Shown here in pieces: positions 3,125 to 36,050 of a DNA stretch of 36,050 bases. Position 1 is the first letter of the stretch; each line of letters opens with the position of its first letter. The notes beneath the pieces are model-generated. The model had not been told where the DNA came from, did not search any database, and saw only the letters and a program-made list of their open reading frames with translations. The translations under genes were made by a program, and so were the position numbers. The stretch comes from a virus, in the IMG/VR virus record IMGVR_UViG_3300025128_000146, positions 1 to 36,050 of that record; one strand, written 5' to 3'.

Positions 3125-3588
3125 TGATATTAAATGGGCATTGGAAGATGGAGATAGAAGATACCTTCGATGATGGTAATGCCATCAATCAACTCTTTAG
3201 AGAAGAAGCAGGAGAATTTCTGAATACTATTTGGGAAATGAGTATGTCTGCCTTTGATTCACCAAGAGAAGTGCAAGTAGTAATAGATAATAATAATAAA
3301 TTATTCATTGATTATGGTAGTGCTTCGTTTGTAGAATTTAAAGACTCTGAGGGATTAACTGGAATGAAATTACCAATTAAGTGTTGGATACATACTCATC
3401 CATTTGGCTCTGCTTATTTTAGTGGAACTGATATGAGAACCATCAATACTTGGAAGATACATATGTTATCAGCGATAGTGTTGGGTGATGGTGAACATCA
3501 GTTATGGATGAACACTAGGCCCAATGAGGCTAAACATATTACTTATAGTAAAGTAAAAATTATAAAATTAGGAGATGAAGAAGAATGA
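3124..3588 (+). CDS. JAMM/MPN-domain metalloprotease (JAB family)
   Basis: JAMM proteins are zinc isopeptidases that trim or remove ubiquitin-like modifiers. The signature H-x-H-x7-S-x2-D is complete (IHTHPFGSAYFSGTDM, H90, H92, S100, D103). A candidate upstream catalytic glutamate lies in EEAGEFLNTIWEMS at about residues 28-40. At 154 residues it is about one MPN domain with no extra domain. The gene overlaps the E1-like gene by TGATG and the GroES-like gene by ATGA. The adjacent E1 and JAMM enzymes suggest a ubiquitin-like or sulfur-carrier pathway, but I see no modifier protein here. In some tailed phages JAB domains also act in tail assembly, so that remains an alternative. Confidence 0.85.
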   Translation: MILNGHWKMEIEDTFDDGNAINQLFREEAGEFLNTIWEMSMSAFDSPREVQVVIDNNNKLFIDYGSASFVEFKDSEGLTGMKLPIKCWIHTHPFGSAYFSGTDMRTINTWKIHMLSAIVLGDGEHQLWMNTRPNEAKHITYSKVKIIKLGDEEE

Positions 3589-6991: not shown

Positions 6992-7109
6992 TAAGTTAAT
7001 ACTAATGTTAGTAATAAGTGTATTTTATTTCTCAGCGGTAGGTGTATTTTATTTCTTAGGTAGAAAAGTGAGAAAAATAGAACAAGATATTTGGAGGGAT
7101 TTAGAATGA
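6984..7109 (+). CDS. Small single-pass membrane protein, 41 aa
   Basis: A 41-codon frame starting at GTG 6984 reads MNDKLILMLVISVFYFSAVG and continues with VFYFLG, one long hydrophobic helix, then a basic and acidic cytoplasmic-looking tail (RKVRKIEQDIWRDLE). It fills the gap between two genes and overlaps the ligase start by ATGA. The GGGAGAGATAAAC upstream offers a Shine-Dalgarno. Positive charges after the helix suggest the C-terminus stays inside. Function unknown. Confidence 0.6.
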   Translation: MNDKLILMLVISVFYFSAVGVFYFLGRKVRKIEQDIWRDLE

Positions 7110-8641
7110 AGTGGATAGAGTTTAGTAGATTAAATCAAGTGGTCGAGGGGCTAACCCCTAACCGCAGTATTAATCTGTTATCAAAAGACTTTGAACACAA
7201 TTATGATTTGATAAAAGTCCTATCTTTAGATTTACCAGTTAATAATTTGGCTAGTAAAAAGGCTTTCAAATGGATAGTTAATTCATTGGAGGTATTCCCT
7301 GAAGAAATAGAGATGTCTATCTATACTCATGGTGATATTGGAGAAGCAGTATATCATTTCGATGAAGGGTCAGAGGATTCTGATTTCTCACTAAGTAGTA
7401 TAGTCCAATTATTAAGTATGGATTGTAGTAAGAGTGATGGCGAATCTTATCGTAAATTCCATATATACTTCTCTAATATGTCAGCCTTAGAAAAGAAGTG
7501 GTTCATTAGATATTGGTTAAGAACTACTCGCAATGGAACTGGTGTAGGTTTGGTTAGGAAACTACTGGCTAAAGTCTACAATAGAACTAATGAGCAGGTA
7601 AAGAAACATAATCAATTACATAGTTTGGCAGATATATCTAATTACTATTTTAGAGGAGAAGAGCCACCTAACGATTTGAAAGTAGGTCGCTTCATATCAC
7701 CGATGTTAGCGAAGGTGGTCCCGAAAGAAAATTGGCCAAAAGACTACATTGTAGAATACAAATATGATGGTGCTAGGTATCAAATCCACAAAGGAGATAT
7801 AGTGGGCCAAGGAGAAACTATACTTATCTTCAATCGTAAAGGTAAGGTGGTGACTAATAAGTTTCCAGATATTGCTAGGATGGTTTTGTCTTGGGGTATC
7901 AAAGAATCGTTTATTATTGATACTGAGATATACCCCATTGATAGTGAGGGGAAACCTACACCATTCAAGAAGATGGGAACTAGAATACATTCAAAGAATA
8001 TCGAAGAGGCTATTGAAAAATGCCCTGTAAACTTGGGAGTATTTGATTGTATGATGTTCAATGATGAAAATCTAATGGATTCATCTTTGAGAAATAGAAT
8101 ACCTTTCATAACTAAATTTCCTAAACAAGCAGTTAGAACTCTAATTAAAACAGATAACGACACATTCTATAATCTAGCCATTAATGATGGTTATGAAGGT
8201 ATTATGATTAAGAATCTAGATACTACATATGAAAGTGGAAAGCGTTCAAAGGGCTGGGCTAAACATAAACCACCTAGATTTGAATTAGATGTAGTTGTAA
8301 TTGGTGCTAGATATGGGGATGGTAAAAGGTCAACCGTATTCGGCTCGTATGATATTGCTGTAAAGGATGGTAATGAATTCATATCAGTTGGTAGTATAGG
8401 AACTGGGTTTTCAGATATAGATTTATTATATTTGACTAGCGAAGGTAAAAAGATAGTAGAGAGAGTGTCTAATGGAACTTATGAATTACTACCTAGAATA
8501 GTTCTAGAAGTAACTTGTGACTTAATAACTACTGATGTGGATGGTAATATTGGTCTTAGATTTCCAAGGATGCTAAGAATAAGAACTGATAAACCAGTCG
8601 CAGATATAAATACAATACAAGATATTTCGGAGATGATGTAA
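7106..8641 (+). CDS. lig: ATP-dependent DNA ligase
   Basis: Seals nicks, joining Okazaki fragments. The nucleotidyltransferase signature is EYKYDGAR with catalytic K219. Further motifs are FIIDTEIYP (motif III), YEGIMIKNLDTTYESGKRSK (motif IV region) and GWAKHKP (motif V). An N-terminal DNA-binding domain (residues about 1-200) includes RTTRNGTGVGLVRKLLAKVY, and a C-terminal OB-fold region follows motif V. Length 511 is normal for archaeal/eukaryotic-type ligase. ATG 7106 is preferred over the TTG at 7091: GGAGG at 7093-7097 is 8 bases upstream and the ATG overlaps the previous stop. It abuts the next gene by TAATG. Confidence 0.93.
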   Translation: MKWIEFSRLNQVVEGLTPNRSINLLSKDFEHNYDLIKVLSLDLPVNNLASKKAFKWIVNSLEVFPEEIEMSIYTHGDIGEAVYHFDEGSEDSDFSLSSIVQLLSMDCSKSDGESYRKFHIYFSNMSALEKKWFIRYWLRTTRNGTGVGLVRKLLAKVYNRTNEQVKKHNQLHSLADISNYYFRGEEPPNDLKVGRFISPMLAKVVPKENWPKDYIVEYKYDGARYQIHKGDIVGQGETILIFNRKGKVVTNKFPDIARMVLSWGIKESFIIDTEIYPIDSEGKPTPFKKMGTRIHSKNIEEAIEKCPVNLGVFDCMMFNDENLMDSSLRNRIPFITKFPKQAVRTLIKTDNDTFYNLAINDGYEGIMIKNLDTTYESGKRSKGWAKHKPPRFELDVVVIGARYGDGKRSTVFGSYDIAVKDGNEFISVGSIGTGFSDIDLLYLTSEGKKIVERVSNGTYELLPRIVLEVTCDLITTDVDGNIGLRFPRMLRIRTDKPVADINTIQDISEMM

Positions 8642-10998: not shown

Positions 10999-11910
10999 AT
11001 GTTATGGACAGAAAAATATAGACCAAAGAATATACAACAACTAGTAGGTCAAGAGACTTTCAAGTTAGATGCAGAGAACTGGATAGAGAATAAAGTAATG
11101 CCGAATGTATTGTTACACGGCTCCGCTGGTGTAGGTAAAACTGCTGCCGCTGGTATATTAGCCAACGAACTATTGAAGGCTGAGATAGATTCAAACTACT
11201 TTGAAATCAATGCTAGTGATGATAGGCGACTAGAAGTAGTTAGGACTACCATAAAAGATATCGCTCAACAGAGAGCAATAGGAGATGTCCCATTCAAAAT
11301 CATTCTATTGGATGAGATGGATGGTATGACTCCTGATGCTCAGAATGCATTGAAGAGAATCATGGAAAGATATTCAGATAATGTTAGATTTATTATTACT
11401 GCTAATGATAGGAGTAGAATCATCTATCCCCTACAATCTCGTTGTGCTAATTACTTCTTTTCTAAAATTGAAGGTGCTACAATTAGAACATTGCTCCAGA
11501 CAATCTTGACAAATGAGAACATTTCTCATCCCTCTCAAGAGGAACTGGACACGTTTATAAGTCACTACCAAGGTGATACTCGTAGAACAATAACGGAAAT
11601 GCAAGCCGCACTTGCAAGTGGATTAAGCCTACGAAAACAAACTGATAAAAGTCTAGAAAGATATGATAAGATATTAGATTTGCTAGTAAGTGAAAACTAC
11701 AACAAAGCACTAGAAGAACTACATAATGCCCTTTATACTGGAAAAACTGTAAAAGATATTTGTTATGGATTACATGAAGTTATTGTTAAAAGTGATATAA
11801 CTGAAAATCTAAAATTCAAATATCTAAGAGCAGTTGGTGAAGCAGAATGGAGAGGCAAATCAATGACCCCAAGAGTATTAGTTTCTTGGGTTATATCTCA
11901 ATTGAGGTAA
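10999..11910 (+). CDS. rfcS: Replication factor C small subunit (clamp loader)
   Basis: Loads PCNA onto primed DNA using ATP. The N-terminal RFC box reads LWTEKYRPKNIQQLVGQE. Walker A is HGSAGVGKTAAA, the following strand FEINASDDR is the RFC 'NASDeRg' motif, Walker B is IILLDEMDGM, sensor 1 is FIITANDRSRI and the arginine-finger SRC motif is PLQSRCANY. A helical collar domain follows from about residue 220. Length 303 is slightly shorter than cellular archaeal RFC-S (about 320). It begins one base after the large-subunit-like gene. A 37-base gap with an AAGGAGG site separates it from the SSB gene. Confidence 0.95.
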   Translation: MLWTEKYRPKNIQQLVGQETFKLDAENWIENKVMPNVLLHGSAGVGKTAAAGILANELLKAEIDSNYFEINASDDRRLEVVRTTIKDIAQQRAIGDVPFKIILLDEMDGMTPDAQNALKRIMERYSDNVRFIITANDRSRIIYPLQSRCANYFFSKIEGATIRTLLQTILTNENISHPSQEELDTFISHYQGDTRRTITEMQAALASGLSLRKQTDKSLERYDKILDLLVSENYNKALEELHNALYTGKTVKDICYGLHEVIVKSDITENLKFKYLRAVGEAEWRGKSMTPRVLVSWVISQLR

Positions 11911-11947: not shown

Positions 11948-13177
11948 ATGAATGAAAATATGAAAACAGAAATAGAAAAATATGCTGAAGTTATTGGCGT
12001 TACTGTAGAAGAGGCAAGTGCTATCTTCGACGGTATTGTTAATGATAACAGTTTAGATGTTAATACCGATGAGGGACTATTAGTTGCTCGTAGTGTATTT
12101 AGGTCTAAGTTTGGTCAAGCGAGAGCGAGACTAAAGAAAGAAAGCGAAGGTGGAGAGAGTAATCAAACCACTGAATATACCGGCCCTACCTATACCCAAA
12201 AAGCAACTGGGTTCTTTTGGGCTGTTGAACAAGCAACTGACTGGGAAGAGAGAAACCGTAACAGTCTTTTGGCTGAATACCAAAGAGATGCTAACTCTCT
12301 ATTAATGAGTGGAAAGGTCGCTATGGCAGTTCAACTATCAGAGGGTAACTATGAAGTCTCTCTAATAAAAGATGGTGAGAATAATACCAAGGTTATGGAA
12401 AAATTACCAGATACAGAACCTATGCAAGTAGATGATGATAGATGGATTATTCCAGTCGATGATAGAAAGGCTTGGAATAGTGGACAACCTAATCCTAACT
12501 ACGGTAAACCTCTACCTGCTACTCGTTGGCAGAGAAGTCTACTCTTTGTTGGTAAAATAAATGATGGTGAATATCAAGAGTATGTTCTTAGAGTAAATGG
12601 AGAACAAGCAAAGACTTTCCAACCACGCACATTTGCATGGTGTGAGTTTGATTGTGTTCCTAACTCTAACAACCCATCTAATCTAAGTGCTAGAAAAGAT
12701 GGAAGCACAGTTGCTTCTCTCAACTACTTAGACTCCAGTGAGAATACTTTAGAAGTAATTCAATCGGTATTAGGAGAAAAGGTTTCTGCTCTAACTACAT
12801 TAGATAGTTATCACTCAGAGAACTCACACAAACCATACAATCAGAGACTAGTAGTAACTGATGGTAATGTGGCTAATATGAATCTACAAGCATACGATAA
12901 TGGCAACCGAGTTATCTTTTTGAGTGACTTGAATGCTGATTTCGATTATGAAGGAGAGGGTTTCTCTTCCACCGCTTGTTGGGTTCCAAGTCATGTTGAT
13001 ATTGACTTTGGTATCGGTAGCAATGTTATAATTGCAGGTCGAACTTCTCAACGTGAAGTCGATGGAGAACTCAGCAATGTGAGTATAAATGTTCTAGGAC
13101 TATATGTCGTTGACCGACATGGTAGTGCAGAAGTATATGTTCAGCCGGAGGAGGACAACGGCGACATTTGGTTTTGA
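11948..13177 (+). CDS. RPA/SSB-like single-stranded DNA-binding protein
   Basis: A 409-residue protein with a helical N-terminus (KYAEVIGVTVEEASAIFDG), then long beta-rich regions compatible with two or more OB folds (for example RSLLFVGKINDGEYQEYVLR and NVIIAGRTSQ). It ends with an acidic, aromatic tip, PEEDNGDIWF. That tip is built like the bacterial SSB tail (DDDIPF) that recruits partner proteins. A perfect AAGGAGG at 11934-11940 lies 7 bases before the ATG, suggesting high expression. Position between clamp loader and Sak4-like ATPase/PCNA supports a replication role. The OB-fold reading is inferred; no zinc finger is seen. Confidence 0.7.
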   Translation: MNENMKTEIEKYAEVIGVTVEEASAIFDGIVNDNSLDVNTDEGLLVARSVFRSKFGQARARLKKESEGGESNQTTEYTGPTYTQKATGFFWAVEQATDWEERNRNSLLAEYQRDANSLLMSGKVAMAVQLSEGNYEVSLIKDGENNTKVMEKLPDTEPMQVDDDRWIIPVDDRKAWNSGQPNPNYGKPLPATRWQRSLLFVGKINDGEYQEYVLRVNGEQAKTFQPRTFAWCEFDCVPNSNNPSNLSARKDGSTVASLNYLDSSENTLEVIQSVLGEKVSALTTLDSYHSENSHKPYNQRLVVTDGNVANMNLQAYDNGNRVIFLSDLNADFDYEGEGFSSTACWVPSHVDIDFGIGSNVIIAGRTSQREVDGELSNVSINVLGLYVVDRHGSAEVYVQPEEDNGDIWF

Positions 13178-14306: not shown

Positions 14307-14321
14307 AGCAAGGTGATTAAA

Positions 14322-15101
14322 ATGGAAATTAAAGTAAATAAAAAAGAGATGGTAGATGCACTGAAACAAGTCGAGATTAAAGGTAAGTGGGCAACCACTT
14401 CAGGTTTATCTTCAAAGTCTCTTGGTAAGTATATTCATTTTGAATTAAGAGAACAACAGTTATTCTTAGTCAATTCAGATGAATCAACCACAGCGGTTAT
14501 TCATGTTGATGTAGAAACAGAGGATGAAGATAGTTCTTTTGTTTTAGATATAGAGAATCTTAAAAAGTATATGGTTAAGATGTCTGATGAAATAACCTTT
14601 GAAGTTAATGATACTGCTGTTATGAAATCAGCAGGTAAGAGGGCTACAATGCCTATTGTAGTTGAACATCCTTTCGATGGTAGAATTAGAAGATTCTTAA
14701 ATCAATACCCTATAACTTGGGAGTCAGAATTAGAGACTATACCAACGGTTGGGGTTATAGATTTTAATGCTGGTATTCAAGTATCAGCAGAGGAACTGTA
14801 TAATGCGATAGATGCATGTGAGATTGTAAACAATGGAATCTATAAATTAAACTTTATGAGTTCAGATGATATAACTAGACCACAGTTTATCATTTCATCA
14901 GAGGAGATTATATCCTCTTATAGAGAGGAATTACCTTTCAATAAAGTTGTAGGTGAATCGGCTACTGTATTATTCAGTGGCCCATTACACAAATTCTTTG
15001 GTAAGAAAGGAACAATTAATATTTTTATTGGGGATGACCAACCCATAATTATGGTTACAGAAAATAGTGCGATAGTTCGTGCGCCGAGGATAGGGATTTG
15101 A
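14322..15101 (+). CDS. pcn: Sliding clamp PCNA
   Basis: The ring-shaped clamp tethers polymerase, ligase and nucleases to DNA. The 259-residue protein has the two-domain PCNA plan: MEIKVNKKEMVDALKQV at the start and FVLDIENLKKYMVKMSDEI closing domain 1. A linker near residues 100-130 follows. Domain 2 ends in strands INIFIGDDQPIIMV then SAIVRAPRIGI, equivalent to the PCNA 'P..ief...yllAPRi' end that binds PIP boxes. ATG 14322 is chosen over GTG 14313: AAGGTGA at 14310-14316 is a suitable ribosome site. Its upstream leader is structured. The clamp loader lies a few genes upstream and the polymerase directly downstream. Confidence 0.88.
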   Translation: MEIKVNKKEMVDALKQVEIKGKWATTSGLSSKSLGKYIHFELREQQLFLVNSDESTTAVIHVDVETEDEDSSFVLDIENLKKYMVKMSDEITFEVNDTAVMKSAGKRATMPIVVEHPFDGRIRRFLNQYPITWESELETIPTVGVIDFNAGIQVSAEELYNAIDACEIVNNGIYKLNFMSSDDITRPQFIISSEEIISSYREELPFNKVVGESATVLFSGPLHKFFGKKGTINIFIGDDQPIIMVTENSAIVRAPRIGI

Positions 15102-17389: not shown

Positions 17390-18306
17390 TTTACGCCCAC
17401 ACTGATTCACTCTATGTCCCTATACCTTCTATTGAGAAGGCTCAAGAGATAAGAGAGATTCTAAACAAACACATTCAAGATGAGATATTTCCCAATCTAA
17501 TGGGTTTAGATGACCATCCTATGGATTTAGAATTCGAGAAATACTATTCTGTATTAGGAGTAGGGGCGACTAGAAACAGAAATGCTGGATTCATCAATTG
17601 GAAAGATGGAGTATATCTAAATGAACCTGAATTTGTAAGCACTGGTTTCGCATTAAAAAGAATCGCTGAATCTAAGATAGGTAAAGAGGTTCAAAAGACT
17701 ACCATAGAGATGTGGATTACTCAGAAACCAAAAGAAGACATCATTAGTTATACTAAAAAGATGTATAATGATATTCGTAAAGGTCTAGTTGAGAAATTAG
17801 ACTTAGTTAAAAGAAGTCGAGTAAAAGAGAATCGCCTTACATTAAAATGTAAATGTAGAAAAACTTACTCGGTTGATTATGTTAGGAGATTATTAGGAAT
17901 TGTTCCTGACTCCTTATGTGAAAAAGATAACTGTAATGCCAAATTAAAAGATTGCACAACAGTAGAAGGTAAAAGACCAGTATTTGGAGGAGGGTTTGCA
18001 GGTATGTTATATTATAATGAACACGTTAACCCCAAAGATAAGATTGATGATTCCTTTTACCATCTGAAAGCCAAGTTCAAAAGTAATCAGATTAATACCT
18101 TTACTAACTGGAACGGTGACACTAGAAAAGCGGAGTATATTGCGGTAAAAAACTTAGAAGAGTTTGAACCCTTTAATCCCGACTGGAACTTTTTAGCCGA
18201 ATCAGAAGTAATAAAGAAAATAAAACCCGTATTTGAGGCTATGAATTGGGACTTAGATGCGGTAAAGAAAGACGATAGACAGAGAGATTTAGGAGAGTGG
18301 TTTTGA
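17380..18306 (+). CDS. polB: Family B DNA polymerase, C-terminal part (motif C + thumb, PIP box)
   Basis: The fragment starts exactly at the motif C strand: MQVVYAHTDSLYV. The second motif C aspartate (D9) is present but the first is His (YAHTDS for the usual YGDTDS). The thumb region follows. An unusual cysteine set (CKC at about 148-150, then C and C in SLCEKDNC) could bind zinc inside the thumb. The C-terminus is QRDLGEWF, a textbook PCNA-interacting peptide (Q-x-x-L-x-x-W-F). ATG 17380 is the only reasonable start; GGAG at 17365-17368 is 11 bases upstream. With the part at 15103-16758 it rebuilds one enzyme. It overlaps the next gene by TGATG. Confidence 0.9.
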   Translation: MQVVYAHTDSLYVPIPSIEKAQEIREILNKHIQDEIFPNLMGLDDHPMDLEFEKYYSVLGVGATRNRNAGFINWKDGVYLNEPEFVSTGFALKRIAESKIGKEVQKTTIEMWITQKPKEDIISYTKKMYNDIRKGLVEKLDLVKRSRVKENRLTLKCKCRKTYSVDYVRRLLGIVPDSLCEKDNCNAKLKDCTTVEGKRPVFGGGFAGMLYYNEHVNPKDKIDDSFYHLKAKFKSNQINTFTNWNGDTRKAEYIAVKNLEEFEPFNPDWNFLAESEVIKKIKPVFEAMNWDLDAVKKDDRQRDLGEWF

Positions 18307-19950: not shown

Positions 19951-20105
19951 TGGTTTTTGAAGAAATGTTAGAAGGTCAAAAGAAATTAACTGAAACAATG
20001 GAGGAGATACATGCTACTCTTAAGTTCAGTAATAGAATAATTATGATGGTTAATGTAGTTAATATTGCCACTATTATTGTAGTGGGAATGGTGTTATTAA
20101 AATGA
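19947..20105 (+). CDS. Small C-terminally anchored membrane protein, 52 aa
   Basis: A short helical N-terminus (MVFEEMLEGQKKLTETMEEI) is followed by one hydrophobic helix (IIMMVNVVNIATIIVVGMVL) ending at the C-terminus. ATGA overlap with the preceding gene and a TGA/ATG overlap with the primase define it. Such tail-anchored small proteins recur in this window; function unknown. Confidence 0.6.
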   Translation: MMVFEEMLEGQKKLTETMEEIHATLKFSNRIIMMVNVVNIATIIVVGMVLLK

Positions 20106-21181
20106 AATTTCCTAGAGAAGTATGGCCAAGTGCTAATAAACAAACATCAACTTTTGCTAGTAAAAGAAAGTTAGTTCATAATCAAGAACAGTTTAACGAG
20201 TTCGTTAAAATGTATAATGGTAAAATGAATGTCTTTACATCAGTATATGATTACGGGCAATATACTATTAAACAAGCAGTAGTATCAACTGTAATTCTAG
20301 ATAGAGTGTTTTTAGATTTCGATGCCCATCATGGGGAAGTCAACAAACATACTGGAGCGCAACTAATTAACCAAGAAGCAATACAAAGTTGTTTAGAAGA
20401 TTTAAGATGTGTGATGGATTACTTGGAAGAAAAAGATTACAAATATGATATGTCTTTTTCTGGAAGAGGGTTTCATGTATATGTTTATGGAGAACCCATT
20501 AAAGATATACGCAGACTAAATGCTTTCTTTAATGAAGTAAAGGAAGTTACAGTTAACGGAACTTTAGATAGTTCCGCTATATCTAGTAGAAGATTAAGAA
20601 GAGTTAGAAACACTATGAATATGAAAGCCTCTTATGGAGATGGCTGCTATTATTGTGTGCCTTTAGATTGGGCTAAGATGAAGGGGTTAGGAGTGAGCGA
20701 TTTCCTCACTATGTCTAAAACCCCTAACACAATCGCCTTGCCTATGCGAGGGACTAAGTTGGTTAATTGGCCCGAAGTTCCTCCTATAGAGGAATCAGAA
20801 ATAGAGGCTGAAGTAATTAATGTAGGTAATTTACCTATGCCACCATGTATGCATAGCGCAATCATGGTAGAGAACCCAACTGATGAAGCAAGAGCATATC
20901 TTGTTAGTTGGTATAAAGACCTATTGTTATGGGCTGACCCCAATGTGGGGTTTGCTGATACTAAGGTAACACCTAGTAGAGATACTAGACAAAGAATGGT
21001 GAATAAAATCACCACGGAGATTAAAGGATTACATGAAAACCATAATGTTTGGTTGGATTTTAATGAAGAGGTAACTAAGTATAGAGTTGGTTTTATCGTA
21101 GATGGGAATTATAATTTTCCCAATTGTGATAAACTAATCAATAACGGTTACTGTATTGGAAAATGTTGGAGGATGAAATAA
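20102..21181 (+). CDS. priS: Archaeo-eukaryotic primase PriS fused to a PriL-type Fe-S domain
   Basis: Makes primers for DNA replication. The AEP catalytic core is present: LDFDAHH (D72, D74), SFSGRGFHVYVYG (nucleotide-binding S118-H125) and a third acidic/basic motif LDSSAISSRRLRRVRN (D156). The C-terminal region looks like the large-subunit Fe-S domain: MPPCMHS (C249) then, after about 90 residues, NCDKLINNGYCIGKCWRMK (C342, C351, C355). A helical segment with NPTDEARAYLVSWYKDLL between them resembles PriL 'neaRfalasFLl'. So one 359-residue chain seems to combine both functions, as in the plasmid PolpTN2 type. It sits before the tandem-motif microprotein and the helicase-like gene. Confidence 0.8.
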   Translation: MKFPREVWPSANKQTSTFASKRKLVHNQEQFNEFVKMYNGKMNVFTSVYDYGQYTIKQAVVSTVILDRVFLDFDAHHGEVNKHTGAQLINQEAIQSCLEDLRCVMDYLEEKDYKYDMSFSGRGFHVYVYGEPIKDIRRLNAFFNEVKEVTVNGTLDSSAISSRRLRRVRNTMNMKASYGDGCYYCVPLDWAKMKGLGVSDFLTMSKTPNTIALPMRGTKLVNWPEVPPIEESEIEAEVINVGNLPMPPCMHSAIMVENPTDEARAYLVSWYKDLLLWADPNVGFADTKVTPSRDTRQRMVNKITTEIKGLHENHNVWLDFNEEVTKYRVGFIVDGNYNFPNCDKLINNGYCIGKCWRMK

Positions 21182-21267
21182 TGAGACAAACTACGCTATT
21201 TGAATATGGAATGAGATTAGAAGGACAGATGACTTTAGAAGATTTCGGTTTAACTTTTGAGGAATAA
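21181..21267 (+). CDS. Microprotein with two tandem PCNA-interacting-like motifs, 28 aa
   Basis: A 28-codon gene too short for ordinary gene finding. It contains two copies of one motif: QTTLFEYG (residues 3-10) and QMTLEDFG (16-23), both Q-x-T-L-x-(E/D)-(Y/F)-G, joined by a five-residue linker. This fits the PIP-box pattern Q-x-x-L-x-x-aromatic; archaeal PIP boxes such as QATLFDF are close. Support for real translation is good: GGAGG at 21168-21172 is 8 bases upstream, TAATG overlap with the primase, and 2 bases to the next start, whose own ribosome site lies in its last codons. Likely role: bind one or two PCNA subunits and modulate clamp use (inference). Confidence 0.65.
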   Translation: MRQTTLFEYGMRLEGQMTLEDFGLTFEE

Positions 21268-21269
21268 AT

Positions 21270-21965
21270 ATGAATTTAATTATTGATAGTAGAGAAGTCT
21301 CTGCTTTATCAGATGAGGTGGAAAGTAAAGCCACCAGTATGAATATTATTACTAAAAAGCAATGGATTGAAGTTGGAGATTATGTTATAGGGAATACTTG
21401 CTTTGAGGCAAAATCTACTCATGATTTCTTATCATCGGTTATTAGTAAAAGGCTGTGGACTCAATTAGATAATATGGATAGGTGCTATGATAATAATATA
21501 GTTATCATCTATGGCTCTTTAAGAGATGCACTGACCTATACTAAATATTCTGCCAAGTATAATTCTATGCCTAGAAATAGAAAGATGCAATTATTAACCA
21601 ATAAATTCTATGGTGCATTAGGTAGAATCATTTTAGACTCAGACATTAAACCAGTTTGGGTTCTAGATGAATTCGCAGCAGCATCAATTATCTGTAGTGT
21701 TGCTAAGATGCAACCAGTAGATAGACCACCAATTAAACCTCACATGTTTAAGCGGTTCACAACAGACGATGTGAGAATAAATATGTTAACTACCGTTAAG
21801 GGAGTTAGCGAAAAGAAAGCAAAGATGCTTATCAAAAAATATGGTTCACTTATGGAGATAGGTGACTGTGATAAAAGAGAACTATGTTCTCTAGAAGGAA
21901 TAGGGGATACTACTGCGGATAGAATCCTATCTATTTTTAACTCAGAAAAGAAGGTGATACAATGA
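21270..21965 (+). CDS. ERCC4/XPF-family nuclease with C-terminal helix-hairpin-helix
   Basis: A structure-specific endonuclease cutting branched or flap DNA. The nuclease domain shows LIIDSRE (D6, R8, E9), EVGDYVI (D37) and FEAKSTHDF (E46, K48), equivalent to the ERKxxxD motif with Ala in place of Arg. A tandem helix-hairpin-helix DNA-binding domain follows (TTVKGVSEKKAKMLIKKYG and LEGIGDTTADRILSIF). At 231 residues it matches the short archaeal XPF type without helicase domain. Archaeal XPF nucleases depend on PCNA, which makes the tandem-motif peptide directly upstream notable. Start GAGGAA 7 bases upstream of ATG 21270. Confidence 0.85.
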   Translation: MNLIIDSREVSALSDEVESKATSMNIITKKQWIEVGDYVIGNTCFEAKSTHDFLSSVISKRLWTQLDNMDRCYDNNIVIIYGSLRDALTYTKYSAKYNSMPRNRKMQLLTNKFYGALGRIILDSDIKPVWVLDEFAAASIICSVAKMQPVDRPPIKPHMFKRFTTDDVRINMLTTVKGVSEKKAKMLIKKYGSLMEIGDCDKRELCSLEGIGDTTADRILSIFNSEKKVIQ

Positions 21966-24646: not shown

Positions 24647-25030
24647 TCAAGCGTTATAGGATGCAATCGCATCCCTATAATCATTAGGGCTAAAATAACC
24701 TACTAGTTTTAGATTATCATCTACCACTGTAACCGCTATAGGCTTCTTTACATTCATCATTAAAGCCGCCTCTTTAACTGTGCTATTATAATTTACAGAT
24801 AAGATATTGGAATCTAAGTGGTCTTCACATTTTTCAACTCTACAATCTAAATCATTAGACATGGCAACTAACATGTGGGAATCTGTAACTATACCCATAG
24901 GTAGTTTATCATCCACGACTACCAATACCCCTCTTTCTAATGCTAATATTTTCTTAGCGGCTTCACTAAGAGTGGCATGTTTGCTTATGGTATCATATTC
25001 ATCAGTTATATTCAAGTCGGAAATCCGCAT
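24647..25030 (-). CDS. CBS-domain pair protein
   Basis: Two tandem CBS domains, the usual AMP/ATP/SAM-sensing unit. Domain 1 covers about residues 4-62 and domain 2 about 67-125; each ends in a typical 'G.v...d': MGIVTDSHMLVAM and LVGYFSPNDYRDAI, with the strand GVLVVVDDKLP in domain 1 and AVTVVDDNLKL in domain 2. Nothing else is fused, so the protein is regulatory or a partner subunit. ATG at 25030 gives 127 residues; a TTG at 25042 is an alternative. It is convergent with the + strand genes and separated from the structural operon by its own promoter-like region, so it may be expressed on a separate schedule. Confidence 0.85.
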   Translation of the reverse strand: MRISDLNITDEYDTISKHATLSEAAKKILALERGVLVVVDDKLPMGIVTDSHMLVAMSNDLDCRVEKCEDHLDSNILSVNYNSTVKEAALMMNVKKPIAVTVVDDNLKLVGYFSPNDYRDAIASYNA

Positions 25031-25074
25031 GGGTCTTATCAAAGTGAATTTAGTTAAGAAGTTTTTGAAGTATA

Positions 25075-27793: not shown

Positions 27794-28210
27794 CTATTCT
27801 ACCTCCACCGTATATATTACTTCGATAGTATCACTAGTTGAAAAGTTTCCTATTGGGTCAAAGTTAATTCTAGAAAGCATAATATTTTCAACTGGGCTAT
27901 AATTATATCCACTAGTATCTATTACTGCCATCTCTGCATCAGTAGGAACATCTCCAAAGAATCCTACTTCTCTAATAGTGTAACCTTGTAATTCAGTCCC
28001 TGTAAAATCTCCTCTAAATTCTACAACCTTATCATCAGAAGAACTAGAGGTGGTGGAAGAATCTGTGCTGACTGGTAATGGAACATCGAGAGTAGTAGAA
28101 GTAGGATTGGTTCCACCTCCACCAACTCCTAGTTTAACTTTGCCTGATGTGCTACCAAAGAATTCTCTAAGGAATAGTGCCATTTTCTTTTTAGTATTGT
28201 CTGTTATCAT
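27794..28210 (-). CDS. Tail/baseplate-associated structural protein, 138 aa
   Basis: Soluble beta-type protein with a basic N-terminal helix (TKKKMALFLREFFGSTSGKV), a serine/threonine-rich linker (STDSSTTSSSSDD) and a structured second half (LQGYTIREVGFFGDVP ... DTIEVIYTVEVE). The second half resembles collar/fibre-attachment proteins of tailed phages, which carry a 'v.EvGff' strand and end in a 'v.y.v.v' strand. It overlaps the giant protein gene by ATGA and precedes the fibre gene by one base. Probably links fibre and baseplate. Confidence 0.6.
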   Translation of the reverse strand: MITDNTKKKMALFLREFFGSTSGKVKLGVGGGGTNPTSTTLDVPLPVSTDSSTTSSSSDDKVVEFRGDFTGTELQGYTIREVGFFGDVPTDAEMAVIDTSGYNYSPVENIMLSRINFDPIGNFSTSDTIEVIYTVEVE

Positions 28211-31200
28211 ATAAAATCCTCATCTATTATTATTTCTGTGACTGTTTCTTGTGGCCCCATAGTTGTCTCAAAGTCTAGTTTTCTTTCCGTCAATGTTTGG
28301 AATCCTAATGTGAACGCATTACTGTCTACTAAACCGACCCTTTTAATCATCAGTCTTAATTCTTTCAGTTTAACTGAATCAAAGAAGTCTAGTGGAGAAG
28401 TGGTCGAAGTGAATTGACTACCCCTGATAGAGGCAGAATTAGATTTATTAGTCATAGATAATTCAGCAAAACGATTCGCTAAATCCTTTCTGTAAGTTCC
28501 GGCCTCTAATTCGAGGAGTCCTTTTAACTCCCTTCTTATCTCATAAACTTTGTAAGTATCAGCAGGGACTCCTTCACTTGGGAAATCTAAGGTAATGATA
28601 TCTCCCGCTTTTATGAATTCGACTCCCTTACTCGACATCTTAATTGTGAACCTATCATCACCATCAGAGTGCGCTTTCAGGAGTTTCTTAGCACGGATGT
28701 CTACATCGTCTTGTGAAATAAGTTCCATATTTACCTCTTCTAAAGTTTTCTTACCAAACTTGTCTATACTCTTGCGATTTCTTTTAATGGCTTTCTTTCC
28801 ATTACCATATACAATTATTTCATTGTATAAATCAAAGGTAGATTTATTTCTAGTTACGCTAATAATTCTTAAATCTTTATTATCATAAGATAATACAATA
28901 TCCCTAAAGTCTAAATCATTACTCTGTTTAATAAGAGATACTCCCTTTTCGTCTACCCTTATTTCTTTTTCTTTATATTTAGCAGCGAAGTTAGTAGCAT
29001 TGAATAAATCCACACCTTGGAAATTAGGAGTGAGATAATAAGGGTATTCTCTATTATCAGAAATATCATACTGTATATCTTCCCCTGATAATAAGTTATT
29101 AATAATGTCCTCAACTTCTTCTCCAATGGCCACTGTAGAACCTATCTTAGCAGAAGTTACATTTGGTAAATTAGTAGGCACATTACTTTTAATTGAGAAT
29201 ATTTCTCCGAAAGAAACTAATCCTAATAAATCATTTTCAATTTTACCAATAGATAATCTACACAATGCTCTATCGTGATAATAATCTGCCTCTACACCCA
29301 TAGATATTTTTTGCTTATTTAATCCATCAGTGAGTAACATATTGTATGCTTCTCCACTTTTGAAAGTATTTCTATTTCCACTAGGATTGAATAAATGTGC
29401 GTAATCTCTAAGAACCGTAAATGTATTATTTAGAAGATGAACAGTCGCCCCACTCAAAGCAGAATCACTAGCAAATCTACCTGCTATTGTAACATTTAAT
29501 CCATTAGCAGATATAGATTTAACATAACATTTTTGATTACCTAGTTTTAGTTTATCTCCAACTTGTATATCATTAGCAACAGAGGAATTGAAAACTACTA
29601 CATTTTCACCAATAGCGATAGTAGCAGTTTGCGTTAATTGCTTTTGTTGAGAATGCCTAGCATCCATATCTACTGCAACATACATTGACATCACCGCTTC
29701 ATTTTCTCCAAATTTAGTACTGGTGTCAAGAGTAGTAGAACCAATATTAGAACCAGTAAAATTATGTTGATTAGAAACTCTTGATTGGCTAGGGGTATGA
29801 CCATACATTGCATTACTTTTTGGCATTTTTGTAGTCTGAGCAGATAATTTATACATATCTATTTCATTTGGAGAAGTGGCCCAAAGACAATGTTCAGCGG
29901 GGCGCATAACCCTATAATTATTATAAAATCTAGGATTACCTTCCTTATCTAATGGTACATTATCAATTAGTAATTCATGTGCTACTTCTTTACCTGTAAT
30001 ATTTCTTCTATGTTCTTTGATATAAATTACATGGTCAGGGACTACCATCATATTCTCACAACTACCCTCTGCTTTATGTATGCCCCTCGCTATACTTCTC
30101 CCTTTTACACCATTCGTAAATACACCATCAGTCTGTTTAAAGATGCTGTGATTAATAAGTAGTTCAAGTGACTGTGGGGCAACAGTAGCCTCACTATTAA
30201 ATGGAACAGCACCTAATAAATCTACTGCGTGATTTGCACCCCCAACACTAACAGCATATTGATTGCCACTCGTAGGATTATCCCCAGCAGAAAATCCAAA
30301 ATTACCAACCAAATACATTCCGGTTAAATCTGTAAAGTTTAAGAAATGATTCCATTTAAATGGGGCTTCGGAAAAACTAAGAGTTTGGCCAGTAAAACTT
30401 GTTCCTGATGAATGGTCAAAAATACCATTCATTTCAAATGAAGTTACATTCACTCCCTCTGTTCCCGCATTGATACTAGTAACTACTGCATTGCTAGGCA
30501 TAGATGATACAGTAGCACCAACTCCCCCTTGTACATACAATTCCATTCCCACTCTTATTGCTGCTGCGTTACAGGTAACAGTAGCATCGTTATGAGTTAA
30601 GACTACACCACTTACCTCAAAACTCCAATCATCTGCATTAACTAATCCACTTATGGGTGGCCTTGTTATTATTTTTAATACCCCCTCCTTGGAATTACTA
30701 CCATTAATGGAATTGAATGTAACTACCCCTTGTTTTATTTCACTATCTACATCCGCATTACTAATTACATTTGATTTTAGACCATGAAGGAGTGAACCTA
30801 ATTCATTTGTAATTGAATCTAAACATAGTTGAGGAACAAAGGCTGAATAAACTCCCGCTGCTACATAATTAGAAGATTCAGAATCAAAGAATGGTTCAGA
30901 ATCACTATCATCATCTGAATTAAAGGTAGCATAACCTGACGTTCTAAGGTTAGGCTCAATGGTCACAAATGAATATTCTCCACTACGACCATTAGCAAAA
31001 TCAGCATCAGGAGCATTACCACTTCCATACTTTATCGTATGGCGACCAGACATACTATCGGCTAAGGGATTAGTAACCGCATCATTTTTAGACTTAGAGT
31101 GAGCAAAATTTTGAGGATATATACCACCCCATGCCGTTCCTATTTTTCCCCCAATGCTAGGTTTAGTTATTGAGTTTTCAACAGAGTAAGAACCCAAAAA

Positions 31201-34200
31201 TACAATATCGCAACCGTAATATGGATTACCTCCGTTTTGCATCCATTCTAACACATTAGAAGCGTGAGCATATTCTGTATCACGATTGTTAACTACCGTA
31301 CCAACAGCCGCATCATCAATAACCAAATCTTCCTTTGAAGCCATAGCGTTGATGGTTCTATGAGTGTCATGTTTAAGTGTCGTTACTGCACCGAAATCTA
31401 ATCTTTCAGAATAAAAAGTCCTAAATGCGGGAGGTAAAACAAAAGTTCCATTATTTATAAATGAATTCGTTACAGATGACGACGTTGTGTTAATTTTATC
31501 TTGCAAGGTTGAAAAATTTCTACTAAAGTGATTTAAAAATTTATTTTCTGTTATTCCAGAATCTCTAATATCTAAACTTGGAGTAGTAAGATTATAGATT
31601 GATGGGATACCTGAACCTCTCGGTAAACGAGTTATGCCTCCATCTTGACTACCTGATGGGGTAGGAGAAATTGTTATTGTATTAGCGGAAGTATCTCTCG
31701 CAGTAACTACCGCTCCACCATAAATATTTTTACCCGCAATTCCCATACCTGTGCTATAGTTAGCCGCATCAGCAACAGAGATTACACTCCCAAGACTATA
31801 AGTTGCACCAGTCTCTATAGTTCCCGTTATAGTTCCATAAGGAACTTGTTCTTGATTATTAGTCCCTCCATGTTTGGCCGCATTAATCATTGATTGTAGC
31901 ATATTTAATTTTAAAGATTCACCAACTTCAGTAAAGGTATTAGTTCCTCCTCTACCTTTAGTTGTAAACTGATAAAATGAATCTGAAGTTTCCCTATCAT
32001 GAATTCCAGTAGTTCCATCTCCACAAACATGAACATAACCAAAGTATTGTGCTTTATCTCCATCAGATTTGAATATATTATGTTTAAGGTAATCCCCCAA
32101 CATAGTAATGGTGCTTGCATCAGTAACATCATTTAATGTATGCACCTTTCCAATATACCTTCCCTCATCAGTGAATATTTGGTCCCCCTGTTGGAGATGA
32201 CTGGTAATATCACTAACACTTGTTGTTAACACATCACCACTAGTATCATAACCTGTAATTTTAGCATCTAATCTTCTTAATGGTTGGAACCTTGTATATT
32301 CAAAATTAGGAGTAGTTAGTTTAGTCATATCTCTTGGTAATCTTTCAGGGTCAATGAGGTTAAAATGCCAATCATAAGTGCAATCAATTAATCTCATTAA
32401 ACCAAATCTTTTAATTTCGGATGGGAGAATAGAAGCAGTAGTAATTGGTAAAGTATCATATTGGTCATCTGTTTCTATCTCTTCTTCTAAAGAACCCTCA
32501 TAAAATTCATGTGAGGTATTACTTTTAGTGAATGTTCCCTGTCCCTTTAACATAATATTGTAGTCAGTAAAACTTCTACTTATTCCCGAATAGCCAATAT
32601 GATGTTTTCTAGACATTGAATCTGGATACATATCAGCAGGAGAAAATATGTGCCATCTCATTGTTTTGGGGTCGGGTAATTCCCAATGGTCTTTTGCTCT
32701 AGTAATGCCATCAAACTTAGGACCAATATGTGGAGGATAAAGAATGGTTAGTTCCTCAAAACCACTAGCACTAACATCGCCCGTAAGTTTACCTACCGCT
32801 TGAACGGTAGAAGTACCAGAACTATCCCAATGCGTATAAGGGGGTATGAGGGTTCTAATATTCGCATCACCACTACCGGATGCTCCTAATTTAAAGGCAC
32901 GATTTATTACACGGTCATTATAATTGCTTAATTTAATCCATCTATTACTAATAGCGGCGGGAAAGGGTCTAGTGTCAGAATTGGCTTCGTATTCTATATC
33001 CCAATTAAGGTCAGTAGTATTATCTACATTTAATTTAAATCTAAAGTTAGTATCACTACTTACGCTAGTAATTCCATTATTAGCCGTGAATTTTTTGTAA
33101 ATGATAGAATCGTCTATATTATTAACAGGGGCTTCCATATCTTCTTGCCAATCCCCTCCACCAAAATTATCATGAATTCTAGGCATAAATCTAGGATACT
33201 GTAAAGTCCTATGGTCAATATCATCGGGGGAAGTTACATATGTTCCGTGTTTATCAAAATCAGCAAAATTACTACCTAATATTGGTCTAAAATCTCTAGA
33301 TTCTGGAGAAAGATATTCTAAGAAATATGGGTGTGTGGAGATATCACTGTTCGCATCATATAAAGAAATTAAATATGGTGAGGATATATTGGGGTCATAC
33401 ATATTAACATTCCAAGCGAAATCATTATTATGATAAGCGTAAGGATAAGTATAAACATCTTTTATTCCAAACTTAGCATCTGCTATTCTATATGCACTAG
33501 AATACCCGATAACTCTACCTTTTTCTGTAGAATAAGTTTCTTTAATTTGCCCATCTTTCCTTCTTCTATTAATGTATGAGAGATATCTACCCCTTTGTAA
33601 TCCAAAATATCGCCATTTAGTATTACCATATCTGTCTATTACATCACTGAATATTACTGGTTCTGAAGCATTAAGATTATATCTAGTAAGACTACCCTCA
33701 GTGCCATCAACTGTAATAGAGTTATCAGTAATAAAGTGATGCAATCCCCCTGAATATTTAATTGGTTTACAAGTATTATCATAAGCGTTAGGGCTAGATA
33801 GATAATTATTAGTTAAAGTTAATATTCCACCCTGAGTTAATCCTTGGGTGTTTAGGAAATATAATCCTTGAGTGAAGTAATCGGTTAATACTGTTATTCT
33901 AACAGTGAATGAAGAAGATGTATGACTATGAACGTGAAATGCATTAACAGAAGCCGCTGCATTTTTTCCACTTTCTATTTTTCTAGAATTGATATGAACT
34001 GATGGAGTATCCTCACCGAAAATACTTTCATCATCAACAAAGACATGGGTTATTGAAAACACCCCATTCATATTAGCATCATCTCCACCTTCTATTCTTA
34101 TTCTCATATTAGGTTTTAAAGTTCTCAAAAAATCTTTACTAGCAGTAGTACTAGCCGTCAATCTACTAGCCATATAATTAGTTCCAGATAAATTAGCGAG

Positions 34201-36050
34201 GCCAGTAGTAGTGCCAAAATACATACCCGTACCATTATAATGACCATCATGTGTGCTACTAGTATAATATTTACAAATGGATGTGCTAGAAGTTACTGCT
34301 TCAAACAGTGGTCTATCTAAAGTAATAGTGAATAAATTTCCTTCTAACACGGCTTCGCTAGTATCTACCCCTGTACTCCCTACACTAATATCAATAATTT
34401 GGCCATATAATTCCCCACTAGAACTAAAGATATAATCTCCCATCTTTAACTCTCTAATCCATGTAGAAAATTCAATAGGACCATTATATCCACTAGAATA
34501 AGAGGTGGGGAAATTACCATCCATAGTTACCAATATTTTATCTCTACCATCTAAAGGATTATTATCTATTCTCGCTAATACTGCTGGACAAATAGGGGCT
34601 ACTTCTATTGTAGTTTCTGTTTTATTAGAATTAACACTAATAATATCATACTCTGTTAAGGAATTAACAGTGTTCAAATTAGTATAATCAATAGTATTAG
34701 TCCCAGTTATTTCATCAGCGAAATGACAATAGAAAGGTAAATCATAATCTATACTTCCTATTCCGTGAATACTATATCCCTTGGCTAAAGGATTAGTAGA
34801 GGCTGAAGTTCCAACTAATGTATTACCCTCTCCCACTGGCGCACCATTAGTTAAAGTTAGAGAATTACCACCTGTGAATATAACCCCCTTATTACTGGCT
34901 CCGACTAAAGAACTAACCCTAGTGGTATTGTATGGATTAGAACTCATAGCCTTTGAAAAACTAATCATATTACCTTTGGCTTTAAAGTCATCTCCTTGGC
35001 TACCACTTATATCTGTAAATGATTGAGGAGTTTGATTAAGTAAATATGCTGATGCATTACCACTAATAAAAATAGATTCATCATCTTTTAATCTAGTAGG
35101 TATGCCTTCTTCAAAGGTAACAGTATAAGGGTCGCCACTTCCAGTAATAGAATATATTCTACCTAAAAAAGTACCAGTGGCGGTATAAAGCATATCCCCA
35201 GCAGTAGCATTAACTGGGGAACCTTCTTGAGTGGCACTATTATAAGAGATTCCACTTATTTTAATCGCTGTAGTTCCCACTTCATATATTCCAGCAGCAG
35301 TATCATGGTTAATTTGACTTAGTTGAGCCATTCTTTCTATCGGACCAACAGTAGAATAAATAATATCATCTGTAAACTTAAAATCTTTATTTATTACTGG
35401 ACCTAGTAAATCAGAAATATTATTTCTACCTTTAATTTTTAATTTAAACATTCCATCTTCAATAACTTGCTCTACACTTTCTACTACTCCAGAAAACACT
35501 CTTCTCTCTATATCTATAGCACCATTAAAATAATCTAGATAACTAAGAATTCCTCTAACATAGGGGTATAATGAGGTATTAGACCTAGCCAAATCATATC
35601 TGAAAGCACCATTACTAGGGTCAACTGCACTATTAATAAAATAACTATACAAAGAAACATTAGAGAGTTTATCTAAATAAGGTGCAACATCAGTACGATT
35701 AAAGTTCTCTAAAAATCTTTCATCTTTAAGGTGAGTCTGTAATTTCAAAAAACTATTATGTTTATCTCCATAGGCCACTTTAATTCTATGCCCTGTTAAC
35801 TGGCCACCCTTTAACACTAGATGGATATCATTTAATCTACTCTGTGAAGACTTTTCTAATTTCACTTCCCCAATATTAACTGTAGGTTTAGTATTAGCAC
35901 CACTACCAGTATAATCGTTAACTGGATTACGGGTTGTAAGGATAGTATCGAAATCAGTTACGTTTCTATTCCAATTAGTATCATTAGCAGCACCATTACC
36001 ATCTAAAATATAATTAGTTATTTTAGTGTCGATGGGTATGTTGGTTATGA
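28207..36050 (-). CDS. Giant tail/baseplate-hub-like structural protein (N-terminus outside window)
   Basis: The frame is still open at base 36050, so the GTG at 35865 is not the start; at least 2,613 residues are visible. An early part (FSGVVESVEQVIEDGMFKLK, then IKGRNNISDLLGPVINK) resembles baseplate hub proteins. The C-terminal 250 residues (VNMELISQDDVDIRAKKLLK, IKAGDIITLDFPSEG, TYKVYEIRRELKGLLELEAG) also look like a hub/tail-tip ending. Between them lies about 2,000 residues of Ser/Thr/Asn/Gly-rich beta sequence with recurring GD-x-hydrophobic-(F/Y)-(S/T) plus G-x3-G modules. No signal peptide or membrane segment is visible. Probably a tail tip that contacts the cell; function inferred from layout. 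Confidence 0.7.
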   Translation of the reverse strand, partial: ITNIPIDTKITNYILDGNGAANDTNWNRNVTDFDTILTTRNPVNDYTGSGANTKPTVNIGEVKLEKSSQSRLNDIHLVLKGGQLTGHRIKVAYGDKHNSFLKLQTHLKDERFLENFNRTDVAPYLDKLSNVSLYSYFINSAVDPSNGAFRYDLARSNTSLYPYVRGILSYLDYFNGAIDIERRVFSGVVESVEQVIEDGMFKLKIKGRNNISDLLGPVINKDFKFTDDIIYSTVGPIERMAQLSQINHDTAAGIYEVGTTAIKISGISYNSATQEGSPVNATAGDMLYTATGTFLGRIYSITGSGDPYTVTFEEGIPTRLKDDESIFISGNASAYLLNQTPQSFTDISGSQGDDFKAKGNMISFSKAMSSNPYNTTRVSSLVGASNKGVIFTGGNSLTLTNGAPVGEGNTLVGTSASTNPLAKGYSIHGIGSIDYDLPFYCHFADEITGTNTIDYTNLNTVNSLTEYDIISVNSNKTETTIEVAPICPAVLARIDNNPLDGRDKILVTMDGNFPTSYSSGYNGPIEFSTWIRELKMGDYIFSSSGELYGQIIDISVGSTGVDTSEAVLEGNLFTITLDRPLFEAVTSSTSICKYYTSSTHDGHYNGTGMYFGTTTGLANLSGTNYMASRLTASTTASKDFLRTLKPNMRIRIEGGDDANMNGVFSITHVFVDDESIFGEDTPSVHINSRKIESGKNAAASVNAFHVHSHTSSSFTVRITVLTDYFTQGLYFLNTQGLTQGGILTLTNNYLSSPNAYDNTCKPIKYSGGLHHFITDNSITVDGTEGSLTRYNLNASEPVIFSDVIDRYGNTKWRYFGLQRGRYLSYINRRRKDGQIKETYSTEKGRVIGYSSAYRIADAKFGIKDVYTYPYAYHNNDFAWNVNMYDPNISSPYLISLYDANSDISTHPYFLEYLSPESRDFRPILGSNFADFDKHGTYVTSPDDIDHRTLQYPRFMPRIHDNFGGGDWQEDMEAPVNNIDDSIIYKKFTANNGITSVSSDTNFRFKLNVDNTTDLNWDIEYEANSDTRPFPAAISNRWIKLSNYNDRVINRAFKLGASGSGDANIRTLIPPYTHWDSSGTSTVQAVGKLTGDVSASGFEELTILYPPHIGPKFDGITRAKDHWELPDPKTMRWHIFSPADMYPDSMSRKHHIGYSGISRSFTDYNIMLKGQGTFTKSNTSHEFYEGSLEEEIETDDQYDTLPITTASILPSEIKRFGLMRLIDCTYDWHFNLIDPERLPRDMTKLTTPNFEYTRFQPLRRLDAKITGYDTSGDVLTTSVSDITSHLQQGDQIFTDEGRYIGKVHTLNDVTDASTITMLGDYLKHNIFKSDGDKAQYFGYVHVCGDGTTGIHDRETSDSFYQFTTKGRGGTNTFTEVGESLKLNMLQSMINAAKHGGTNNQEQVPYGTITGTIETGATYSLGSVISVADAANYSTGMGIAGKNIYGGAVVTARDTSANTITISPTPSGSQDGGITRLPRGSGIPSIYNLTTPSLDIRDSGITENKFLNHFSRNFSTLQDKINTTSSSVTNSFINNGTFVLPPAFRTFYSERLDFGAVTTLKHDTHRTINAMASKEDLVIDDAAVGTVVNNRDTEYAHASNVLEWMQNGGNPYYGCDIVFLGSYSVENSITKPSIGGKIGTAWGGIYPQNFAHSKSKNDAVTNPLADSMSGRHTIKYGSGNAPDADFANGRSGEYSFVTIEPNLRTSGYATFNSDDDSDSEPFFDSESSNYVAAGVYSAFVPQLCLDSITNELGSLLHGLKSNVISNADVDSEIKQGVVTFNSINGSNSKEGVLKIITRPPISGLVNADDWSFEVSGVVLTHNDATVTCNAAAIRVGMELYVQGGVGATVSSMPSNAVVTSINAGTEGVNVTSFEMNGIFDHSSGTSFTGQTLSFSEAPFKWNHFLNFTDLTGMYLVGNFGFSAGDNPTSGNQYAVSVGGANHAVDLLGAVPFNSEATVAPQSLELLINHSIFKQTDGVFTNGVKGRSIARGIHKAEGSCENMMVVPDHVIYIKEHRRNITGKEVAHELLIDNVPLDKEGNPRFYNNYRVMRPAEHCLWATSPNEIDMYKLSAQTTKMPKSNAMYGHTPSQSRVSNQHNFTGSNIGSTTLDTSTKFGENEAVMSMYVAVDMDARHSQQKQLTQTATIAIGENVVVFNSSVANDIQVGDKLKLGNQKCYVKSISANGLNVTIAGRFASDSALSGATVHLLNNTFTVLRDYAHLFNPSGNRNTFKSGEAYNMLLTDGLNKQKISMGVEADYYHDRALCRLSIGKIENDLLGLVSFGEIFSIKSNVPTNLPNVTSAKIGSTVAIGEEVEDIINNLLSGEDIQYDISDNREYPYYLTPNFQGVDLFNATNFAAKYKEKEIRVDEKGVSLIKQSNDLDFRDIVLSYDNKDLRIISVTRNKSTFDLYNEIIVYGNGKKAIKRNRKSIDKFGKKTLEEVNMELISQDDVDIRAKKLLKAHSDGDDRFTIKMSSKGVEFIKAGDIITLDFPSEGVPADTYKVYEIRRELKGLLELEAGTYRKDLANRFAELSMTNKSNSASIRGSQFTSTTSPLDFFDSVKLKELRLMIKRVGLVDSNAFTLGFQTLTERKLDFETTMGPQETVTEIIIDEDFI

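Follow-up and report, generated by a model that had tools for sequence, protein, structure and literature searches.

A short frame between the primase and the ERCC4 nuclease

The question raised by this locus is whether an open reading frame of only 28 codons, lying between two genes of a viral replication cassette, is a gene at all, and if so what its product would do. The frame belongs to the window, i.e. the whole analysed stretch of 36,050 nucleotides (IMG/VR record IMGVR_UViG_3300025128_000146), and has the following features in and around it.

20102..21181, plus strand: primase-like protein (PHROG 16345/9660)
21168..21172, plus strand: Shine-Dalgarno-like GGAGG, 8 nt upstream of the microprotein ATG
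21181..21267, plus strand: tandem-PIP microprotein gene, 28 aa, with ATG, conserved Shine-Dalgarno, purifying selection and motifs kept
21187..21210, plus strand: PIP-like motif 1, QTTLFEYG
21226..21249, plus strand: PIP-like motif 2, QMTLEDFG, 13 residues from motif 1 (Q to Q)
21259..21262, plus strand: GAGG in the last microprotein codons (..FEE*), likely the Shine-Dalgarno of the ERCC4 gene
21270..21965, plus strand: ERCC4-domain nuclease with helix-hairpin-helix

The translation of 21181-21267 (+) is MRQTTLFEYGMRLEGQMTLEDFGLTFEE, followed by a stop, and its 28 codons hold two near-repeat motifs of the PIP-box (PCNA-binding) pattern exactly as the first-pass annotation described. The translation signals it had pointed to are likewise borne out by the sequence: besides the Shine-Dalgarno-like site, the primase stop TAA (21179-21181) shares one base with the microprotein ATG, and the microprotein stop lies 2 nt upstream of the ERCC4 ATG at 21270. 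The window microprotein has no Pfam match. Two motifs in one such short frame are not a chance outcome, since none of 200,000 residue shuffles of the 28-mer contained two Q.[TS]L.[ED][FYW] motifs, and 400 simulated windows gave a mean of 0.0000 short ORFs with two motifs vs 1 observed.

The replication cassette around the gene comprises a clamp, a split PolB, a Cas4-like nuclease, the primase and the ERCC4 nuclease, with the two parts of PolB placed around an HNH gene. When the gene layout was compared with the description of magroviruses (order Magrovirales) in PMC10768690, the window was found to have the split PolB NTD/CTD with an endonuclease, PCNA, primase and two opposed gene clusters. 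Magroviruses are viruses of marine Poseidoniales, and as the layout of the window matches the published one, the assignment of a Poseidoniales host is taken from the literature (PMC10768690). On the minus strand, the window also encodes a protein with a CBS-domain pair (24647-25042; Pfam E 5e-14) and a 2552-aa protein (28207-35865) without Pfam match, which is probably structural.

Conservation in related viruses

A sample of relatives was drawn with the ERCC4 protein as query, giving 80 related contigs. The short frame between primase and ERCC4, which had been proposed as the thing to look for, is found there with both motifs: it lies just 5' of ERCC4 in L002-L007, L009 and L012, and further upstream in L008, where another ORF separates it from ERCC4. 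A divergent version, MDKNKLSARQTRLNEYGIILTIADTMRQTKVDEWLLC, occurs in L019, L021 and L022, in which ERCC4 identity falls to 56%. Purine-rich sites like GGAGG precede most of the relatives' frames. The pairwise dN/dS, also proposed as a check, ranges from 0.02 to 0.44 in 20 comparisons among relatives (one additional pair is without synonymous changes), and therefore the microprotein frame is under purifying selection. In alignment A2, the Q and L of motif 1 are invariant and its E is nearly invariant; in motif 2 the Q is invariant and the L nearly so. The motifs are conserved, the flanks are not, and across deep clades the surviving positions are the Q, the L, the acidic and the aromatic residues. 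The conserved C-terminal E-E may owe more to the Shine-Dalgarno of ERCC4 than to protein function.

At the same site some relatives (L010, L011, L013) carry a small ORF that is unrelated, and in most members of the large clade around L015-L081 there is none. The first-pass annotation had named a frame lost from relatives, or kept without the Q-x-x-L-x-x-aromatic positions, as telling against its reading; what the search returned is a frame kept with them. The open frame, the conserved Shine-Dalgarno, the dN/dS values and the retention of frame and motifs altogether establish a real gene.

A wider family of tandem-motif proteins

A codon-degenerate pattern of two motifs 13 residues apart was scanned over all IMG/VR contigs. 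It matched 32 stretches, every one on a contig with other genes of the window virus's group, and 31 of the 32 are frames no longer than 71 codons in which the two motifs form the core. L106 alone is different, with a frame of 158 codons that has the tandem motifs at its start. A permuted control pattern whose information content is nearly the same gave 4 viral matches vs these 32. The identical pattern, applied to 84,980 cellular genomes, matched 17 times; these matches lie in long genes or at places with no plausible small gene, which is a non-specific, chance level. An origin by chance or artefact is thus ruled out by the permuted control, the cellular-genome control and the shuffles. Moreover, variable-spacing patterns added about 30 contigs of the same virus group, so that the total for magroviruses and a sister lineage comes to 51 distinct tandem-PIP proteins with lengths of about 27-80 aa, after L128, L129, L130, L131, L135, L139, L141, L148, L155, L160 and L161 were left out as chance matches.

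The consensus of the 104 motif copies is Q-T-x-L-x-[E/D]-[F/Y/W]-G, with T at position 2 in 81 copies, L at position 4 in 98, E or D at position 6 in all 104, F, Y or W at position 7 (71, 20 and 13 copies) and G at position 8 in 73. All copies, with L/I/V at position 4 and F/Y/W at position 7, conform to the PIP pattern Q-x-x-[L/I/M/V]-x-x-aromatic, though the second aromatic of the canonical PIP box is usually missing at position 8. As the motif pattern was itself part of the search, the independent support comes from the persistence of the motifs in the primase-site orthologues fetched via ERCC4. The Q-to-Q spacing is 13-15 residues in 46 of the 51 proteins. Some types carry additional parts: a CxxC region in L145, L147 and L159, a charged C-terminal tail in L132 and L133, and a third motif in L136. 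No significant PHROG match was found for 22 members.

Genomic sites and history of the gene

The tandem-PIP gene occupies four sites, all in the replication half of the genomes:

primase-ERCC4 interval
directly or shortly 3' of PolB, in the sister lineage, where PolB is unsplit
flanked by homologues of window ORFs 3121-3588 and 7091-8641
between homologues of window ORFs 10999-11910 and 11948-13177

In a quick ERCC4 tree with long branches, the gene is present in all deep magrovirus clades but one large clade (26 sampled rows), and is absent as well from L010/L011/L013 and L063; 7 changes are needed to explain its presence and 10 its position. The ERCC4 search also supplied 22 contigs that are large or near-complete; only 4 of them have the gene, with seven of the 22 scanned directly as a check. 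Most simply read, this is an old gene with at least one relocation and several losses; a repeated independent origin is conceivable. The absence from one large magrovirus clade marks the gene as accessory.

These positions also dispose of two narrower ideas. A special or functional tie to the ERCC4 nuclease, the adjacent gene whose family the first-pass annotation called PCNA-dependent, did not hold, since in other lineages homologous or analogous genes lie 3' of PolB or at different places. An extension of the primase by translational frameshift is ruled out as well, for in L090 more than 300 nt separate the motif from the primase match upstream of it, and the tandem gene of other groups does not adjoin the primase.

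The viral clamp and the polymerase tails

Two further features of the window concern the putative binding partner.

14313..15101, plus strand: viral sliding clamp of PCNA fold, likely binding-partner family (PHROG 947, AlphaFold2, Foldseek)
18280..18303, plus strand: C-terminal PIP box of PolB-CTD, QRDLGEWF

A PCNA-type clamp of the virus's own, which the first-pass annotation presupposed, is shown by the PHROG assignment, by an AlphaFold2 model with pLDDT 89.5, and by Foldseek matches of that model to archaeal PCNAs (E about 1e-13), including the PCNA of P. furiosus in complex with a PIP peptide. The sister-lineage clamp also has the PCNA fold by model and structure match.

Of 34 distinct PolB tails from magroviruses, 33 have the ending Q..L..W[FW]. 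These tails resemble the microprotein of the same virus group in the Q-x-x-L-x-x-aromatic pattern, and differ from it as a single motif at the extreme C-terminus with W-F/W at positions 7-8 where the microprotein has F/Y-G. The PIP box is absent from the sister-lineage PolB, whose polymerase therefore probably meets its clamp differently; the tails common to this lineage (L223-L301: ..PK.YW, PKSYF, PKAYGWW, PRPATYW) are perhaps an alternative clamp-docking tail. When 80 sister-lineage PolB loci were fetched regardless of the microprotein, a tandem-PIP ORF was found within about 200 bases of the stop in 22, so the microprotein is not an obligatory PolB tail, and a strict supply of the PIP in trans to a PIP-less PolB is rejected as a general model.

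Besides PolB, a viral AAA/RecA-like ATPase of about 280 aa (L194:6623-7462, L199:550-1389, L207) has a PIP-like C-terminus (QKTLGDYL, QQTLEEYI, QSSLEDFM), and hence PIP use beyond PolB seems likely in these viruses.

A proposed two-headed ligand of the clamp

The reading of the two motifs as PIP boxes stood as far as the pattern is concerned: they match archaeal and p21-type PIP boxes, and they are the conserved part of the gene. Binding of the microprotein to a clamp is what these motifs would predict, and we regard it as highly probable. A search with the profile of A2 against PDB sequences, with E up to 10, gave four weak matches, two of which are PCNA-bound p21 peptides (RRQTSMTDFY; E 0.66 and 0.69, alone not significant).

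The best explanation overall, which we favour with moderate confidence, is a free-standing, two-headed p21-like clamp ligand that would compete for partner sites. The microprotein is probably unstructured, and its two PIP motifs would dock in the partner pocket of the clamp. Two weak-to-moderate motifs on one chain could provide avidity via rebinding, or by binding two rings at once. In filling the partner sites the peptide would displace PIP proteins in the fashion of p21, and a competitive action of this kind is reasonably probable. Host PCNA would in this way be blocked or diverted, with viral replication going on with its own clamp.

That tandem copies can give avidity is known from a pull-down in which PCNA was captured efficiently by GST carrying two to four PIP repeats in series and hardly at all by a single copy (PMC10087552). 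The p21 motif binds with 80 nM vs 3-45 uM for the other PIPs tested, and binders with deviations from the canonical PIP motif are known (PMC6881253), so that G at position 8 leads us to expect a lower affinity per site, still compatible with binding. The tandem arrangement may plausibly offset the missing second aromatic. Both the weakening to be expected from this G and the non-significance of the p21 match on its own count against the best explanation.

Cross-linking within the clamp trimer, as raised in the first-pass annotation, looks doubtful when two protomers of one ring are meant. By the general dimensions of PCNA, the distance between pockets would probably exceed the reach of a 5-7 residue linker, and intra-ring chelation is accordingly unlikely; the linking of two rings, or rebinding, is possible.

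Host clamp or viral clamp

As for the target of such a ligand, we lean slightly to host PCNA rather than the viral clamp, with a regulator of the viral clamp nearly as likely; the host clamp as main target is quite conceivable, if somewhat short of probable. The lean comes from the sister microproteins, which keep a canonical PIP though their PolB is without one, and from a gene that is accessory and relocating. The patchy distribution, the mobile position and a motif type unlike that of PolB are points for the host. A block of host PCNA would be the most likely use, since the clamp that the virus encodes is a divergent one and the PIP type of PolB differs (W-F/W vs F/Y-G). In its stronger form, that bivalent p21-like microproteins poison or cross-link host PCNA rings in magroviruses equipped with their own orthogonal clamp, the proposal is a tentative one.

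An action on the viral clamp, whether as a replisome accessory moderating partner exchange, as a bridge between two clamps or as a separate docking tail for PolB, is also a serious possibility, short of probable. The gene is encoded in the replication cassette, at primase-ERCC4 or soon after PolB, and this location in the viral replication half, which suits a viral-clamp regulator equally well, tells against the best explanation. Moreover, the gene is known only from a virus group with its own clamp, and the 22 adjacent ORFs among the 80 loci stand beside a PolB without PIP. However, the other 58 PIP-less loci and many large contigs have no tandem-PIP ORF (profile-detectable, for the contigs), so PolB is not dependent on the microprotein; the PolB of the window virus already has its own PIP, and a large magrovirus clade does without the gene.

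It is rather improbable that the motif binds another hub protein, such as a clamp loader or a structural or single-strand binding protein. Such a partner would suit the single QTTLxEF copies in unrelated small viral proteins, some of them possibly virion-associated, and the usual G in place of an aromatic at position 8, but the PIP pattern itself, the similar Q-x-x-L-x-x-aromatic motifs at the ends of viral PolB and AAA ATPase, and the presence of the p21 PIP peptide in the profile's short list of PDB matches all speak for the clamp. Finally, a translated leader coupling primase and ERCC4 translation, whose peptide has no function, would account for the stop/start overlap, the 2-nt gap and the likely ERCC4 Shine-Dalgarno in the last codons, yet it is most improbable given the purifying selection, the motifs kept without their flanks, the sites distant from primase/ERCC4 and the extra ORF before ERCC4 in L008.

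Relation to known clamp ligands

The PIP peptide of p21/WAF1 (PDB 1axc, 5e0u), RQT-x-x-T-D-F-Y, is close to the viral motifs, in particular to QTKLTDFY of the L147 group. We propose a likeness of the viral microprotein to p21, itself a short, disordered ligand by which other PCNA partners are outcompeted, and claim no homology. The single PIP of p21 forms part of a larger regulator, and the viral protein has two motifs in 28 residues. The tandem PIP fusions of CtPolD4, whose serial copies raise PCNA capture, are a laboratory construct, not a natural gene (PMC10087552).

Neither PIP boxes nor small inhibitors of clamps are new in themselves; a natural family of essentially only paired PIP boxes appears to be. 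In a search limited to open-licence papers, no report of tandem-PIP viral microproteins was found, and as far as this search shows the family would be the first one described in nature that consists almost only of tandem PIP boxes.

The Thermococcales inhibitor of PCNA, TIP, is reportedly about 59 aa, larger than the viral microprotein, and is said to break the PCNA trimer. The phage protein Gp168 (PDB 7evp) is reportedly a small virus-encoded protein directed at the host sliding clamp; it is said to be folded and to target the bacterial beta clamp without a PIP motif. TIP (PDB 5da7) is a small archaeal PCNA binder, cellular unlike the viral microprotein, and was not among the PDB matches of profile A2 up to E 10, a short profile of little power.

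The motif pattern points to a class of viral clamp-binding microproteins that seems not to have been described before and may control or block the replication of DNA; the viruses concerned are abundant in the surface ocean and have archaea as hosts. Genes this short are readily overlooked by annotation, and the family may give a handle on clamp traffic or host replication control in magroviruses, none of which is cultured. If the host proposal were true, it would amount to a shut-off of host replication, a strategy open only to viruses with a private clamp. Natural bivalent clamp ligands are moreover potential tools.

Other proteins with PIP-like motifs

Several longer proteins bear related motifs. 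In L331, the record of L106, N-terminal tandem PIP motifs are followed directly by a hydrophobic stretch up to LAGC, MSDRQTTLDEFTNSKTRQTRLTEFGIVLLFLCSSLAGC..., which looks like a lipoprotein signal. L317, L332 and L313 have QTTL/QTSL motifs and similar N-termini (..AW..LK / MSWKNILK), possibly a shared delivery or packaging signal; L317 also has a weak, sub-cut-off ADP-ribosyltransferase match (Pfam ART-PolyVal, E 0.004). A small conserved protein starting MSRIEDEVCKKI, which sits 3' of PolB in many sister-lineage contigs, carries in L293 one PIP motif, MKQTTLDEFGLSME, fused to its C-terminus.
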